A DNA stretch of 64,000 bases. Origin: Paramicrobacterium chengjingii (GTDB lineage: Bacteria; Actinomycetota; Actinomycetes; Actinomycetales; Microbacteriaceae). The translations under genes and the position numbers were made by a program. Of this stretch, positions 156-40,576 are shown one piece after another. How positions within the stretch are numbered: position 1 is the stretch's first letter; each line of letters starts with the position of its first letter. The DNA is taken from the NCBI RefSeq assembly GCF_011751765.2, contig NZ_CP061169.1:1-64000 (forward strand), given 5' to 3'. The notes below the pieces were generated by a model that saw only the letters and a list, made by a program, of their open reading frames with translations, was not told the origin of the DNA and made no database searches.

Positions 156-1580
156 ATGTCTGACGAGCAGCAGGATGTTGCCGGAACCTGGCAGGTTGTG
201 CTGGATGCACTCGCTGATGATGAACGCATCACCCCTCCACTGCAGGGATTTCTCAGCCTCGTTGTTCCTAAGGGAATCATGGGCGGAACGTTCTACCTCG
301 AAGTGCCGAACGAGTTCACCGCCGGTCAGCTCAACGCTCGAATGCGAGCCTCCATTCTGGAGGCCTTCGCTCGCACGATCGAAGAGTCTCACGGAGCATC
401 CACTTTTGCCGTCGTCGTCAATCCCGAGATCATCGAGCAGGAGTACGACTTTTCTGCAGAGCCACGGCGTGAGGCAGTGCGCCCAACGCAGCAGGAAGAG
501 AAGCCTTCTTACTCGACACCAGACTCAGTGCTCCCCGCGCGGCAGAACGACACCCGACTAAATCCCAAGTATTCGTTCGACAACTTTGTTATCGGTCAGT
601 CGAACCGATTCGCTCACGCAGCGGCTGTCGCCGTATCGGAAGCTCCGGCGAAGGCCTACAACCCACTCTTCGTCTACGGGGACTCCGGTCTCGGCAAAAC
701 ACATCTCCTGCACGCAATCGGCCATTACGCCATGAATCTCTACCCCGGGATTCGCGTGCGCTATGTCTCGAGCGAAGAATTCACGAACGACTTCATCAAC
801 TCCATCGCAAACAACCGTGGCCCAGAGTTTCAGGCGCGCTATCGCAACATCGACATTCTGCTGATCGACGACATTCAGTTTCTGCAGAACAAGGCGGAAA
901 CCCAGGAAGCCTTCTTCCATACGTTCAACACCCTGCACGACCACAATAAGCAGGTGGTGATCACCAGCGACCTTCCACCGAAACACCTGACAGGATTCGA
1001 AGACCGTATGCGTTCACGCTTCGAATGGGGCCTCATTACCGACGTTCAGGTGCCCGACCTGGAAACGCGCATCGCAATTCTGCGCAAGAAGGCGCAGAGC
1101 GAGCGGCTGCAAATTCCCGATGAAGTGCTTGAGTTCATTGCCTCGAAGGTCTCGAGCAACATCCGAGAACTCGAGGGCACGCTCATACGAGTCACCGCGT
1201 TCGCGAGTCTCAATCACACCCCCGTCGACATGGCTCTCGTGCAGACCGTGCTCAAAGACATCATCACGCTCGATGAAGACAACGTGATCTCACCCGTCGA
1301 CATCATCAATACAACCGCCGCGTACTTCAAACTGACTGTCGACGATCTCTATGGATCCAGTCGCTCCCAAGCCGTCGCGACATCACGGCAGATCGCCATG
1401 TATCTCTGTCGCGAACTCACCAACCTTTCGCTTCCCAAGATCGGCCAGCTCTTCGGCAATCGCGACCACACGACAGTGATGTACGCGAACAAGAAGATTG
1501 GCGACCTGATGCAGGAGCGGCGGTCGATTTACAACCAGGTGACCGAGCTCACAAGTCGCATCAAACAGGGAAACCGCTGA
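156..1580 (+). CDS. dnaA: Chromosomal replication initiator protein DnaA
   Basis: AAA+ initiator that binds DnaA boxes and melts the origin. At 474 residues it has the usual four domains: an N-terminal interaction domain (about 1-90), a short variable linker rich in Q, E and S (about 100-135), the AAA+ core with Walker A GDSGLGKT at about 175-182 and Walker B LLIDDIQF, and a C-terminal DNA-binding domain with the signature [12 protein letters not shown]. The start is ATG after a GGGGG-type ribosome site. DnaA boxes lie on both sides of the gene, so it is very likely autoregulated. The product name is secure. Confidence 0.98.
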
Positions 1581-1953
1581 TCCACCTGGCCTTTTGTTAT
1601 CCCTTGTGGATAACTTGTGGAGAAGATCCGGAAAACTCCTCTTAACTGGGGACAAGATCGCCCTGCCTGTGAGTTGAGACGCCGTGACGGCTCCGGCTCA
1701 CAACCGTGTAATTACGCGGCTCCCACACCAGTTGAACAACTCACACGCGTGTAGTTCCCATATTTCATGAGGCGTGTCGGGACTTATCCACAGTTTCCAC
1801 AGCGGTTAAGCCCGTTAAGAGAATTACTTAAACAATATTTATGCGGGAACCTTGACCCATTAGAGCTCGATTCTTCGAATGACAGATTTTCTGACCCCGA
1901 TGTGGGGCTAGCATGGTGTGCGACTTGTCCATCGAGTTCGACAGGGGTACCAC
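1581..1953. other. Probable oriC (dnaA-dnaN intergenic region)
   Basis: This 373-bp gap has no credible gene. It carries DnaA boxes on the minus strand at 1605-1613 (TTATCCACA) and 1616-1624 (TTCTCCACA), and on the plus strand at 1784-1792 (TTATCCACA) and 1793-1801 (GTTTCCACA). An AT-rich stretch at about 1804-1845 follows the last pair and could be the unwinding element. Near-palindromes CGTGTAATTACGCG (about 1705-1718) and ACACGCGTGT (about 1743-1752) lie between the box pairs. The position between dnaA and dnaN is the classical actinobacterial origin site. Confidence 0.85.
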
Positions 1954-34145: not shown

Positions 34146-35009
34146 GTGAGCACCTTCCCGACGGGCCGCGAGAACTTCTGCTACCGGCATCCTGATCGGC
34201 AGAGCTTTGTGCTCTGCCAACGGTGCGGTCGCACAATCTGCGCCGAATGCCAGACGCAGGCGCCCGTCGGGGTGGTGTGTCCCGAGTGCATGCGTGAGCA
34301 GCGTGCCTCGGCACCCAAGGTCAAGTCGGCCGCGGCGACTCGATTCTCGAGTGTCATGCGCAAAGGATCGGGCCACCCGGCCGTCACCTATGTGATCATC
34401 GCGCTCACCCTCGCGGTCTTTGTGCTCCAGCTGCTTCCGCTGGGAGTCACCGACGCTCTTCTGTATGCCGGCGTCTACAGTGTTCCCGAGCTCGGTTTCT
34501 TTGAACCATGGCGGATGCTGACTGTCGCTCTCGTGCACTCGAAATCGTTCATTCTGCACGTCGCGCTCAACATGTACACGCTGTGGATTTTCGGCAGAAT
34601 GCTTGAGCCGATGATCGGGCGCTGGCGATTTGCGACGCTCTACGTCATTACGGCCTTCGGTTCGTCGGTGGGCGTTCTGCTGCTGTCGAACCCTCTGCAG
34701 CCCGTGGTCGGAGCGTCCGGGGCGATCTTCGGCCTGATGGGCGCGACCCTCGTTATCGTGCACAAGCTGGGCGGAAACATGACGGGACTTCTGGTGCTTG
34801 TCGGCATCAACCTCGTCATCGGCTTCATTCCGGGCACCAACATAGCCTGGCAAGCGCATCTCGGCGGCCTCATCACCGGAGCCTTGCTTGGCCTAGTCTT
34901 TGTGAGCACGCGGCGTCGCAAGCAGCAGAAGATGCAGAAGCTCGGCGTTGCCGGAATCGTTGTGCTGCTGCTCGTGCTGACGGTTGTCGGAACCCGTCTT
35001 TACGTGTAA
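34146..35009 (+). CDS. Rhomboid intramembrane serine protease
   Basis: A 287-residue rhomboid. The first 45 residues have a zinc-ribbon-like set of Cys and His (CYRHPDR, CQRCGRTICAEC, CPEC). The membrane part has six or seven segments, with HVALNMYTLWIFG, the catalytic serine in GASGAIFGLMG (near 190) and the catalytic histidine in AHLGGLITG (near 238). The start is GTG at 34146, 12 bp after ppiA, so co-transcription is likely. Substrate unknown. Confidence 0.92.
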   Translation: MSTFPTGRENFCYRHPDRQSFVLCQRCGRTICAECQTQAPVGVVCPECMREQRASAPKVKSAAATRFSSVMRKGSGHPAVTYVIIALTLAVFVLQLLPLGVTDALLYAGVYSVPELGFFEPWRMLTVALVHSKSFILHVALNMYTLWIFGRMLEPMIGRWRFATLYVITAFGSSVGVLLLSNPLQPVVGASGAIFGLMGATLVIVHKLGGNMTGLLVLVGINLVIGFIPGTNIAWQAHLGGLITGALLGLVFVSTRRRKQQKMQKLGVAGIVVLLLVLTVVGTRLYV

Positions 35010-35334
35010 ACGCCTCCGACGGTGTCATTGCGGTTCTCGCATCAAAACGCGGCGGGCATTCATACGTGTTCGTCCACACGTTTTCCACACGGAAGTGGGC
35101 ATTTCACACAGATCGCCCACAAGCCGTCCCCAGAGTTATCCACAGGTTTGTCCACACTGTGGAGAATTACAGGCATGTAACTCGACACCGGCCGGGGAAG
35201 TTACTCACAGGAGTTATCAACACCTGGGGAGAACTACACTCGTGTAATTCGGTGCGACGCGGCATCCTTCGTTCGCGGCGATAACTGGTGCCGCCCGGCG
35301 TACGCTGGGGAGAGGCCGAGGAGAGGATGCTCGA
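35010..35334. other. Intergenic cluster of DnaA-box sequences
   Basis: This 325-bp gap has no gene. It holds TCGTCCACA (35070-35078), TTTTCCACA (35081-35089), TTATCCACA (35136-35144), TTGTCCACA (35148-35156), TTCTCCACA on the minus strand (35158-35166) and TTATCAACA (35214-35222), with a weaker TTACTCACA at 35201-35209. TTGTCCACA is the favoured actinobacterial box. A CGTGTAATTC element at 35241 and TTACA-N4-TGTAA at about 35166-35179 recall motifs in the dnaA-dnaN origin. It may titrate DnaA or be a second origin-like element. Confidence 0.7.
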
Positions 35335-36162
35335 ATGGTGACACGTGAGCGCATACGCCACGAACTCGAGGTTCGGCGCACGACTGTTGAGCGCGTCGAC
35401 TGGCTCAACGATGCCATGGTGCGCATCACCGTGACAGGCGAGAGCCTGAGAGGTTTTACGGCTCGGGGCCCGAACGACCACGTCAAGGTATTCTTTCCCG
35501 ACCCCGACACGGGAACCCTCACGGCGCCGCACAGAACGGCCGAGGGCCTCACGCGCCCGACGGACGGCCTGATTCTTTCGCGAGACCTCACACCTCTCAC
35601 ATTTCGTGAGAACAACTCGGCGGGCGTTCCCGAACTCGACATCGACATTGTCGTTCACGGCGACGACGCACCCGCGACGTCGTTCGCAACGCATGCCCAT
35701 CCCGGTCAGCCGCTCGGCATCGCCGGGCCGCGCGGATCACGCCTCGTCCCCGACGGCATCACGCGTGCAGTGCTCATCGCCGATGAGACGGCGCTGCCCG
35801 CCTTCACTCGCTGACTGCGGATGCTGTCGCCCGACGTAAAGATCACCTCCATTGTTCAGGTGAACACCGAAGAGGCCGATCAATACATCACACAGGAGCA
35901 TCGCGACCGCTCGAACATTGAGCTTCTCTATCGTGAAGACGGCCCGGGACAGCTGATCGAGGCAGTGCGTTCTCTCGGATCGATCAGCGACGACACGTAT
36001 GTGTGGGCCGCCGGCGAGGCGAACGAGCTCGTCGAGGTGCGCCGTCACCTTCGCCGTGACCTCGGTCTTTCCCCGGATCAGGTAGAGGTAGAGGGCTACT
36101 GGAAGCGCGGAATCGTCAACCTCGATCACCACGCCCCGCTCGACCCCAGTGATCCTGACTGA
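35335..36162 (+). pseudogene. Siderophore-interacting protein with in-frame TGA
   Basis: The first part (160 codons) is an FAD-binding siderophore-interacting domain (WLNDAMVRITVTGESLRGF, then GPRGSRLVPDGITRAVLIAD). A TGA at 35812-35814 falls between PAFTR and LRMLSPDVKI. The same frame then continues to 36162 through TYVWAAGEANELVEVRRHLR, the family's NAD-binding end. A tryptophan codon fits the family at this position, so one G-to-A change explains it. The family releases iron from siderophores using NADPH. The second half has no ribosome site, so the gene is probably inactive unless read through. Its end overlaps the flavin reductase start (TGATG). Confidence 0.85.
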
Positions 36163-36692
36163 TGGCACACGAGATCGTCGACGTCGATGCATCCGCGCTG
36201 GGTCGCACGGTGAAAGACAGGTACCGGATGCTGTCGGGCAGCGCAGCAAAGGGCGTTGCCGTTGTAACGACCGTCGCTGCCCGATACGACCACGCAACGA
36301 CTGTCACCGATTACCTTTCGGTGTCATACGACCCGCCGACCATGCTCGTGAGTCTTTATGGGCTGTCGCGCACGGCTGAGGCCGCCACGGACTCGGGGCG
36401 GTGGGCGCTGAGTCTGCTCGCCAGCGATCAGCGCGCCATTGCCGATGAGCTCGGGGAACTTGGAGCGCCGCTCAGGGGTCTGCTCGCGCGCACGCCGCAT
36501 TGGCGGCGCGAACCGGGTGCGCCGGCAATCATCGAGGGCAGTGTTGCATGGTTCGAATGTCGAACGACGGCGGTGCACACGGCGGCAACGCATCAGCTCG
36601 TCGTCGGCGAGGTCGTGGCGATGGGGCGCAGCGAAGATCACCGTGCGAAACCGCTCGTTTTCTACCGGTCGGAATTTGGCACCACGACATAG
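36162..36692 (+). CDS. Flavin reductase domain protein
   Basis: A 176-residue protein of the flavin reductase/FMN-binding split-barrel type. The stretches GVAVVTTVAARYDHATTVTD and VSYDPPTMLVSLYGLSRTAE match, and ATHQLVVGEVVAMG lies near the C terminus. It would bind FMN or FAD and NAD(P)H. Its ATG overlaps the stop of the siderophore-interacting pseudogene, so it was probably translated with it. A terminator hairpin follows. Confidence 0.85.
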   Translation: MAHEIVDVDASALGRTVKDRYRMLSGSAAKGVAVVTTVAARYDHATTVTDYLSVSYDPPTMLVSLYGLSRTAEAATDSGRWALSLLASDQRAIADELGELGAPLRGLLARTPHWRREPGAPAIIEGSVAWFECRTTAVHTAATHQLVVGEVVAMGRSEDHRAKPLVFYRSEFGTTT

Positions 36693-36741: not shown

Positions 36742-36999
36742 CTATCGCCAGCGTGTGGTCATGAGAAAGCCGATGAAGGCGATGCCGAAACCGACCAGAA
36801 TGTTCCACGAGCCGAGGGCGGCAACGGGCAGAAGCCCCTGTGAGAGGTAGAACACGATGATCCAGGCGAGTCCGATCAGCATGAAGCCGAACATGACCGG
36901 CTTGAACCACACCGGGTTCGGTGCGTCGTCACCGCTGCGCTGAGCCTGCTGCTGCTGTTGAGCGCGAGCTGCTGCAGCTTTGTTCTTCGTGCGTGCCAT
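36742..36999 (-). CDS. crgA: Cell division protein CrgA
   Basis: An 85-residue membrane protein with a basic, glutamine-rich N-terminal tail and two membrane segments (about 35-52 and 60-80) joined by the SQGLLPVAALGSWN loop. It ends with the typical FIGFLMTTRWR. CrgA stabilises the FtsZ-linked septum and recruits wall enzymes in actinobacteria. Start is the ATG at 36999; another ATG at 37008 would add three residues. It stands between ppiA/rhomboid and the sortase, its normal place. Confidence 0.93.
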   Translation of the reverse strand: MARTKNKAAAARAQQQQQAQRSGDDAPNPVWFKPVMFGFMLIGLAWIIVFYLSQGLLPVAALGSWNILVGFGIAFIGFLMTTRWR

Positions 37000-38882: not shown

Positions 38883-40343
38883 TCAGGTGCGCGGCCTGGT
38901 ATCTCGTCCGGGGTCGGGTCCGGTGTCGTTGTCGTCTCCGGGTTTGCGCCGCCTGCCGAGATACCGTCGGTTCACGTACCAGTCTGGTGGAATCAGTCTC
39001 GGGTGCCCGGTGTTGTCGCGGGTGAGGGACCATTCGCCGCGTTCAACCAGACGGTGATGAAACCAACACAGCATGACACCGTTCGTGGTGTCGGTTTTGC
39101 CGTCTTTTGCCCACCCCTGCACATGGTGTGCTTCACACAGCCAGGCGGGAATGTCACAGTCGGCAGCAACACACGTGCCGCCATCGCGTGCGATCAGGGC
39201 GAGGCGTTGCTTCGGGGTGAACTCACGTCTGGCATACCCGAGGTTCAACACGTCACCGTGCTCATCGATACGCACCTGTCGGGTGTCGCCGTCGCATCGC
39301 ATCTGCTTCACAAACGACATGGGTAACGGTGCCGGGGTTCCCGGCGACCACGCAGCACCCGTGCCTGCTTCGAGGTCATCGTTTTTCACGGTGACGAGCA
39401 CGGTGGGTCCTCTGCCGTGGAGTTTCGGTGCAGACTTCTGTTTCCCGGTGCCGCCGATGATCGCTGTGAACACGTCAGCACGTTCCTGCTGCCTCGACCG
39501 CACTTCCGGTTCCTGGCCGTGGGCGGCTAACTCTTCGGTCTCCATGAACTTCGGGCTGGTGCGTTTGGACATGAATGCGTCAAACACGGGTGTCACCTGT
39601 GCTGCCTGTTCCGGGGAGAGAGTGCCGGTGATTTTCATGCTGCCATCATCCCGATGACGAAACAGCAGAGCGCGTGCTTGATGGAGTTCTTCCGCTGTGG
39701 GTTCCACACCATCCGGATCCAACGCAACACAAAACATGCGTGCCTGCTGCCGCAGAGCATCCGCCGACACCGGCACCTCACCGTATGCACCGGTGGCGTT
39801 ACCCAACAGTGTGCTCTCGGCCCACTCTGCTTGTTCTGGTGCCACCCGCGACAGAACCGGCGCCAACGCCGACGTGATCACCTCGGCAACATCCAAACCG
39901 ATCGTGCCCTCAGCAAGCGCCGCAGCCGTCTGGGTGAAGACCGGATCCAACGGCAACCCCGTGTCAGACACCCGCGGTGTCGCCTGTTCGGCAACCTTCG
40001 CGTACCGGTGCGCTGTGGAGTTCTTCACCCCCGTCACCTTCTCAAACAATGCCGTCGCAGACGACGATCCGTGACGGGCCGCAAGACCATCAAACCCCGC
40101 ATCGGTATCGGAGCGCCGGGCAATATCACCAACATTGCCAATTTGGCGGCCCTCAAGGAATCGGGTCGCCGTTGCGAGCAACCCCATATAGTGCAGCAAA
40201 CCCTCCGCGGTGAGAGTCTGCGGGTCAACACCAGAAAGATCCGTCAGCGTATCGAGCAACCGCTCAGCCGCAGCGCACGCGACAGCATCCCGACCCTCCA
40301 TAGGCCCGAAATCTGATGCCGCCGCTGTGTTGTGCATGACCAT
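38883..40343 (-). CDS. DUF222/HNH endonuclease domain protein
   Basis: A 486-residue protein. The N-terminal 300 residues are DUF222 (13E12 repeat family, as in mycobacteria), with an LSPEQAAQVTPVFDAFMSKR-type stretch near its end. The C terminus is an HNH motif: CDIPAWLCEAHHVQGWAKDG followed by CWFHHRLVERGEW. Such genes occur in many copies in actinobacterial genomes and are often lost or duplicated. The ATG at 40343 has no good ribosome site. It interrupts the usual pabA-pknB neighbourhood. Confidence 0.85.
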   Translation of the reverse strand: MVMHNTAAASDFGPMEGRDAVACAAAERLLDTLTDLSGVDPQTLTAEGLLHYMGLLATATRFLEGRQIGNVGDIARRSDTDAGFDGLAARHGSSSATALFEKVTGVKNSTAHRYAKVAEQATPRVSDTGLPLDPVFTQTAAALAEGTIGLDVAEVITSALAPVLSRVAPEQAEWAESTLLGNATGAYGEVPVSADALRQQARMFCVALDPDGVEPTAEELHQARALLFRHRDDGSMKITGTLSPEQAAQVTPVFDAFMSKRTSPKFMETEELAAHGQEPEVRSRQQERADVFTAIIGGTGKQKSAPKLHGRGPTVLVTVKNDDLEAGTGAAWSPGTPAPLPMSFVKQMRCDGDTRQVRIDEHGDVLNLGYARREFTPKQRLALIARDGGTCVAADCDIPAWLCEAHHVQGWAKDGKTDTTNGVMLCWFHHRLVERGEWSLTRDNTGHPRLIPPDWYVNRRYLGRRRKPGDDNDTGPDPGRDTRPRT

Positions 40344-40576
40344 AGTTTGCCAGGGGCCACTGACATTGCACCGACACAAACCCCCGATCAAACCACCATT
40401 GTGGATAACTCGCAAAACTTTCTACCTGTGGACGAAGAAGCACGGACGTGAGCCGTTTGATCGGGCGTTCACAGCGACATTTCGACGCACGGGCAACCCG
40501 AGACGTGCTCTACGAGCGGGTGAGCCGGTTCGGCTACGTCAGCGAGCAACGCCCCTGAACCACACGTCAGAGTAGT

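Follow-up and report, generated by a model that had tools for sequence, protein, structure and literature searches.

The first 64,000 nucleotides of the Paramicrobacterium chengjingii contig NZ_CP061169.1 (hereafter the window) carry, in addition to a predicted replication origin (oriC) between dnaA and dnaN, a compact cluster of DnaA boxes downstream of a rhomboid protease gene. This cluster probably represents an ancient and little-studied type of control site, shared across the actinobacterial class, at which DnaA would bind close to the origin and just 3′ of the cell-division gene crgA, and which would act on DnaA itself. The conservation of its layout further indicates that the predicted class-wide element supplies a counterpart to the mycobacterial DnaA site between Rv0010c and Rv0011c, which was reported without one.

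Unless noted otherwise, a DnaA box is a 9-mer with at most one mismatch to TTRTCCACA. Six such boxes, two of them exact, fall within the 153 bp from 35070 to 35222 (starts and strands 35070+, 35081+, 35136+, 35148+, 35158− and 35214+), and three 9-mers with two mismatches lie in or near the cluster (35113+, 35201+ and 35225−). The six strong boxes on both strands reported in the original prediction were thus found where it had placed them. The genome, a single contig of 3,622,515 bases, contains 55 exact matches to TTRTCCACA and 713 with at most one mismatch, the latter being used as a total count and not as individual positions. Because a Poisson estimate at this density predicts only about 1.4e-7 clusters of six boxes in 153 bp, the observed cluster is far above chance. 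Just two of the 29 intergenic gaps of the window (delimited with a rough open reading frame filter) contain at least two boxes, namely the dnaA–dnaN gap and the gap holding this cluster.

Three of the boxes form an ordered core together with a second, palindromic motif that we call the P-box. On the crgA strand the order is P-box AAYTACACNNGTGTARTT, box 1, box 2 (opposite strand) and box 3. Boxes 1 and 2 stand head-to-head about 1 bp apart, boxes 2 and 3 are in line with 3–4 bp between them, and box 1 often reads TTATCCCCA on this strand, overlapping the end of the P-box. The window carries the core on the other strand (35136+, 35148+, 35158−, then the P-box at 35165–35182). Both additional motifs mentioned in the original prediction were confirmed; one of them, TTACA-N4-TGTAA, is exact at 35167–35180 and has one mismatch at 35234–35247, and with up to one mismatch it has five matches in the window vs 0.18 expected. 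A wider form of the P-box, AAYTACANNNGTGTARYT (at most one mismatch), occurs at four places in the genome, two of them in this cluster; one of the four could be due to chance, since the reversed control pattern also matches (one forward and one reverse genome match). Exact composites of a box and a P-box are found twice in the whole genome, both times in this cluster. Four pattern strings for the P-box gave no match in the literature searched, and its spacing appears to differ from that of BldD and NrdR sites.

Conservation in the genus, the family and the class

Within the genus, the box 3–box 2 pair is kept in all four congeners and both composites in three of the four. A five-genome alignment shows box 3, box 2 and the outer P-box 1 letters to be invariant amid diverging flanks; box 1 is retained in four of the five genomes and broken by a 2-bp insertion in the remaining one (G002). 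The rhomboid gene ends about 130 bp from the core in P. chengjingii and 949, 827, 252 and 889 bp from it in the other four congeneric genomes (approximate distances, rhomboid ends having been extrapolated where the match stopped short). In all five, the siderophore-interacting protein (SIP) and flavin reductase genes sit between the core and crgA, and box 3 lies 183–251 bp before SIP. The element is kept while its neighbours move, as the core is conserved within the genus though the spacing to both neighbours has changed.

The family was approached from both flanking genes. A rhomboid match was obtained in 56 of 59 genomes, and among the 55 loci analysed (P. chengjingii included, G015 left out) at least one box lies within 600 bp downstream of the rhomboid gene in 49; in one of the six others (L002) the module is found further on. 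Three rhomboid loci are unusually rich in boxes: a relative in the order (L054) has an enlarged cluster with 21 matches of up to one mismatch in these 600 bp, four of them exact, a palindromic box being counted on both strands, and two loci of family f6 (L024 and L025) have 8 and 11 boxes, the module of the latter appearing repeated. In an alignment of CrgA sequences headed by that of P. chengjingii, the 80 best of 546 named relatives bear Microbacteriaceae labels almost throughout, bar a few generic or odd metagenome labels (one of them 'Acidobacteria'), in agreement with the probable placement of the window in this family. Seen from crgA, the first 400 bp 3′ of the gene hold a box in 74 of 79 named Microbacteriaceae loci (79 usable of 80), with a box density there of 6.9 per kb vs 0.16 per kb in the mostly coding remainder of the same loci. 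The P-box (at most one mismatch) was detected in 60 of the 79, compared with three occurrences in all control sequence. An intergenic control, made up of 145 further gaps from these 80 loci, gave 0.41 boxes per kb, with at least one box in 10 gaps, at least two in 2 and a P-box in none.

At the level of the class, 40 hand-picked loci from 24 families were examined, drawn from 289 genomes encoding CrgA (f45, f51 and other families fall outside the sample). The 200 bp that follow the crgA stop codon hold at least one box in 35 of them and at least two in 30, as against 17 and 0, respectively, of 536 control windows taken from the same loci (mostly coding); the P-box, here with up to two mismatches, occurs in 24 of the 40 vs 4 of the 536. 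Neighbouring boxes up to 40 bp apart form 163 pairs, of which the commonest are same-strand pairs at 12 bp on the crgA strand (25 pairs); opposite-strand pairs at 22 bp (23) and at 10 bp (12) also recur. A tandem-box pattern, TTRTCCACA-N3-TTNTCCACA, matched 58 of 296 class genomes, counted irrespective of the position relative to crgA. In all 29 class loci with an identified rhomboid gene, this gene and crgA face each other, though in eight of them rhomboid is more than 800 bp away and another gene may intervene. Comparing the rhomboid–crgA gap among relatives, as the original prediction had proposed, thus shows that the box cluster recurs across family and class.

Searches made irrespective of neighbouring genes led to the same place. 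The composite TGKGGANAAYTACANNNNTGTARYT is present in 54 of 120 family genomes, at 66 places, while the reversed pattern gave none. Thirty of these 66 loci were retrieved and form the basis of the location count (the remaining 36 lie outside it): 24 fall between rhomboid and crgA, three lie 3′ of whichever of the two genes was found, one lies 5′ of crgA and two are near neither, i.e. 27 of the 30 are situated 3′ of rhomboid and/or crgA. A longer, class-wide composite (up to three mismatches) matched 11 of 394 genomes, with none in the control, and nine of the 11 loci are at the rhomboid/crgA gap. Four composite matches (L313, L318, L343 and L347) are near neither gene, and the open reading frames around L313 and L318 have no clear context.

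The features concerned are collected in Table 1. The SIP gene (35335–36162) is interrupted in P. chengjingii by an in-frame stop that is absent from the four congeners examined.

Table 1. Features of the DnaA-box cluster, its neighbouring genes and the predicted origin, with positions in the window.
Feature	Position	Strand	Remarks
dnaA–dnaN gap (predicted oriC)	1578..1917		Holds four boxes, an AT-rich stretch around 1815 and, at 1741-1754, the P-box-like TCACACGCGTGTAG
Rhomboid protease gene (PF01694)	34146..35009	+	Upstream neighbour
Two outer DnaA-box-like 9-mers, TCGTCCACA and TTTTCCACA	35070..35089	+	Conserved less than the core
Core box 3, TTATCCACA (exact)	35136..35144	+	Invariant in five aligned genomes
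Core box 2, TTGTCCACA (exact)	35148..35156	+	12 bp start-to-start from box 3
Core box 1, TTCTCCACA	35158..35166	−	Head-to-head with box 2 at 1 bp; overlaps P-box 1
P-box 1, palindrome AATTACAGGCATGTAACT	35165..35182		Forms a composite with box 1 (35158-35182)
Outer DnaA box, TTATCAACA (one mismatch)	35214..35222	+	In four of five aligned genomes, own included
Second composite	35225..35249		Weak box TTCTCCCCA (−) overlapping P-box 2, AACTACACTCGTGTAATT (35232-35249)
SIP gene	35335..36162	+	In-frame stop; between element and crgA in this genus
Flavin reductase-like gene	36162..36692	+	Between element and crgA in this genus
crgA, cell-division protein gene (PF06781)	36742..36999	−	Faces rhomboid; start codon read from the sequence

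Other places with boxes and P-boxes

The predicted origin contains four boxes in the dnaA–dnaN gap (1605−, 1616−, 1647− and 1784+), the number given in the original prediction, and three more on the upstream side of dnaA (65+, 121− and 133−). A half-palindrome related to the P-box lies at 1741–1754, and variants of the P-box with up to two mismatches were found within 600 bp upstream of dnaN in 26 of 30 loci vs 0 of 30 dnaN coding controls. The rhomboid gene is separated from dnaN by a median of 13.9 kb (range 8–176 kb, below 100 kb in 44 of the 45 genomes, own included, that have both on one contig).

In P. chengjingii, four boxes (2833179–2833254) precede dnaB (L056:5117–6505, minus strand). 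At least two boxes lie within 500 bp upstream of dnaB in 28 of 30 loci (own included), as in mycobacteria, with 124 boxes in the 30 loci vs 3.7 expected from coding sequence. Box matches therefore mark, as predicted sites, four of the five M. tuberculosis DnaA places in this genome: oriC, upstream of dnaA, upstream of dnaB and 3′ of crgA.

Upstream of nrdI, a P-box (at most two mismatches) occurs within 1 kb in 23 of 30 loci, a count made without a matched control, and in nine of the 30 its spacing to a box equals that in the window. In P. chengjingii itself, a P-box and two near-boxes are found upstream of nrdI at 2214206–2214274 (L242:1207–1224 and 1256–1275), with similar pairs in relatives. 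Among the exact box pairs other than the one described here, one lies upstream of dnaB (2833179/2833236) and one near the start of a presumed HNH-type gene (2828806/2828911). The latter is one of two very similar genes (window 38883–40415 and L056:1841–3949), both of which we take from their sequences to be of the HNH type and both of which carry DnaA-box-like 9-mers near their start (40400–40435 and 2828806–2828919), probably through duplication.

Interpretation of the element

We propose that three DnaA molecules would dock on the core in a fixed geometry, the one at box 1 facing the one at box 2 and the third in line behind at box 3, and that the P-box beside them is probably bound by a second protein. 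Lying near oriC, the site would double soon after initiation, which suits negative feedback, and it could act on the amount of DnaA, or on the ATP/ADP state of the DnaA, available to oriC, so feeding back on initiation. Since it would be copied early and is placed between facing genes in most loci, its most likely target is DnaA rather than a neighbouring promoter. Regarding the sign of the effect, we somewhat prefer a negative one (datA-like or by titration) to a positive one resembling the DnaA-reactivating sequences (DARS) of Escherichia coli, while the mycobacterial phenotype, similar to that of low DnaA activity, is indirect evidence that would suit a positive site. That the cluster is a DnaA-binding locus outside oriC, as distinct from what it does there, is well supported, as the layout recurs class-wide and DnaA is bound at the mycobacterial counterpart (Hicks et al. 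2020, PMC7738170).

Several observations count against a site acting on DnaA. Mycobacterial dnaA mutants show an unchanged initiation rate (PMC7738170), so that an effect on initiation stays conjectural; the three boxes of the core would be expected to titrate only small amounts of DnaA; and both DnaA binding and function at the cluster are, in P. chengjingii, predictions from sequence. In five of the 40 class loci (L099, L108, L124, L125 and L129) the first 200 bp 3′ of crgA are free of boxes, and the P-box is below the cut-off in 16 of the 40, including all three loci of f35 and all three of f37 (Streptomyces-like; this label and that of f22 as Mycobacterium-like are inferred). The class-wide composite matched so few genomes, P. 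chengjingii not among them, that its letters must drift. The site is followed, in mycobacteria as in this genus, by a gene transcribed away from it, so that a promoter role is possible there, one family composite (L323) is located just 5′ of crgA, and the same composite geometry recurs upstream of nrdI in several relatives, likely in a promoter context.

These last points are shared by the alternative that the site is a transcriptional operator, at which DnaA and the P-box protein would control a neighbouring promoter and tie it to the cell cycle; its targets would be the SIP gene for this genus, in mycobacteria the gene for the PH-domain protein, and elsewhere crgA or rhomboid. The placement of box 3 before SIP in the five congeneric genomes would agree with this, as would the palindrome of boxes 1 and 2 that starts 66 bp before a PH-domain gene (PF10756) in a Mycobacterium-like genome (L094, family f22), the frequent P-boxes upstream of nrdI, at the same box distance in some loci, and L323. 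We nevertheless regard an operator as unlikely: rhomboid faces crgA in every class locus where it was found, albeit at more than 800 bp in some, a simple consensus scan revealed no sigma-70-like promoter in 34900–35400, and the expression of neither flanking gene was altered in M. tuberculosis dnaA mutants (PMC7738170).

A role in chromosome architecture, in which DnaA and a partner would connect the site with oriC by a bridge, or would keep the origin region in place, and would not influence DnaA activity, appears distinctly unlikely. It would account for the P-box-like motif upstream of dnaN and for the location of rhomboid within 100 kb of dnaN in nearly all genomes, and for the Streptomyces oriC a link between distant box clusters through DnaA domain I contacts has been suggested (PMC13270200). 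Against it, distances to dnaN range between 8 and 176 kb.

The original prediction had also considered a second part of a split replication origin, a reading favoured by the number of boxes, which exceeds that of the dnaA–dnaN gap. The maximum AT fraction over 30 bp is, however, only 0.57 in the cluster vs 0.80 near 1815 in that gap, i.e. the cluster has no AT-rich unwinding stretch, and neither is it a turning point of GC skew, the minimum of which lies near 2.5 kb in the 71.5 kb examined (skew being weak in this genome). Given in addition the 8–176 kb between rhomboid and dnaN, we rejected this reading as very improbable. Finally, a transcription terminator or chance cluster, with a hairpin mimicking DnaA boxes, is hardly credible despite the inverted repeat formed by boxes 1 and 2 between two gene ends in most loci, as a simple scan found no terminator-like site, both the directly repeated box 3 and the distinct palindrome of the P-box recur, and chance predicts next to no such clusters.

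Comparison with known systems

To our knowledge, how actinobacteria limit DnaA is poorly known. Streptomyces coelicolor reportedly has DnaA-box clusters named D78, H24 and H69, said to have been described by Smulczyk-Krawczyszyn in 2006, H69 being a cosmid name. Clusters of B. subtilis and S. coelicolor have been cited for negative feedback (PMC4585315, PMC5742627), and the three Streptomyces-like genomes of f37 have boxes in the crgA gap with no P-box at the cut-off used. A class-wide DnaA site linked to crgA was not described in the titles and opening lines of abstracts searched, which for the most part did not extend to subscription papers.

With E. coli datA the element shares a setting in which the flanking transcription units converge on the gap holding the boxes. 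The datA boxes, in contrast, span about 250 bp as measured here and are accompanied by a site for integration host factor (IHF) (PMC5742627), compared with a compact core and palindrome here. Membership of datA was rejected, as the arrangement box 7–box 2–IHF–box 3 (E. coli boxes at 1178, 1245, 1407 and 1419 of L339) does not correspond to the compact core; an IHF-like site was not searched for. Of the 'datA-like sink' put forward in the original prediction, the datA layout consequently falls away, the box order being closer to that of DARS, while a sink stays among several candidate mechanisms.

DARS lie far from oriC in E. coli. The cores of DARS1 and DARS2, like the present one, consist of three boxes, the first opposite to the second and third, with 12 bp from second to third (PMC5742627), and their head-to-head pair is essential for the release of ADP (PMC10380432, PMC5742627). 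The offset between first and second box differs, however, being 14 in both E. coli cores and 10 here: measured offsets are 14 and 12 for the E. coli cores, 10 and 12 in the window and commonly 10–12 and 12–13 in the class. The IHF and Fis sites of DARS have no known equivalent at this element. Thus the box order agrees and the spacing of the E. coli core does not; the complex would be turned differently, and we therefore do not claim membership of DARS.

A more specific proposal, which we advance only tentatively, is that the element 3′ of crgA is the class-wide actinobacterial counterpart of DARS or datA, a DNA cofactor that would reset the ATP/ADP state of DnaA through the head-to-head DnaA pair and be gated by a putative P-box protein also binding oriC and the nrd promoter. 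If so, this protein would link DnaA activity, the supply of deoxyribonucleoside triphosphates and initiation, and the 'cryptic' resistance-linked site of mycobacteria would be the mycobacterial copy of the switch. The second conserved motif predicts a protein partner that may also work at oriC and at ribonucleotide reductase genes.

The closest likeness is to mycobacteria. We take Rv0010c to encode a PH-domain protein, and Rv0011c is crgA (PMC3989709). DnaA of M. tuberculosis enriches five top regions, one of them Rv0010c–Rv0011c, and homologs of the same five were found by chromatin immunoprecipitation sequencing (ChIP-seq) in M. smegmatis; binding at Rv0010c–Rv0011c has been published both in vitro and in ChIP-seq maps, and the site is said to lack an obvious correspondence in other species (PMC7738170). 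It consists of two box-like sequences that form a palindrome 65 bp before Rv0010c (PMC7738170), a distance matched by the 66 bp before the PH-domain gene of L094. Altered versions of it gave longer cells, like the dnaA alleles that the authors compared with hypomorphs (PMC7738170). As at the mycobacterial site, the box cluster of the family and class lies directly 3′ of crgA (two genes intervene in this genus) and contains a head-to-head box palindrome (35148+/35158− here). Unlike the element described here, no P-box or three-box layout is described for Rv0010c–Rv0011c in the excerpts of PMC7738170, and in Mycobacterium-like genomes the next gene runs in the direction of crgA, whereas elsewhere rhomboid faces it. 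Taken together, the comparison indicates that the DnaA site of the tubercle bacillus outside oriC belongs to an old, ordered element of many families of the class, and because the element is found in so many of them, harmless relatives can be used to learn its function.
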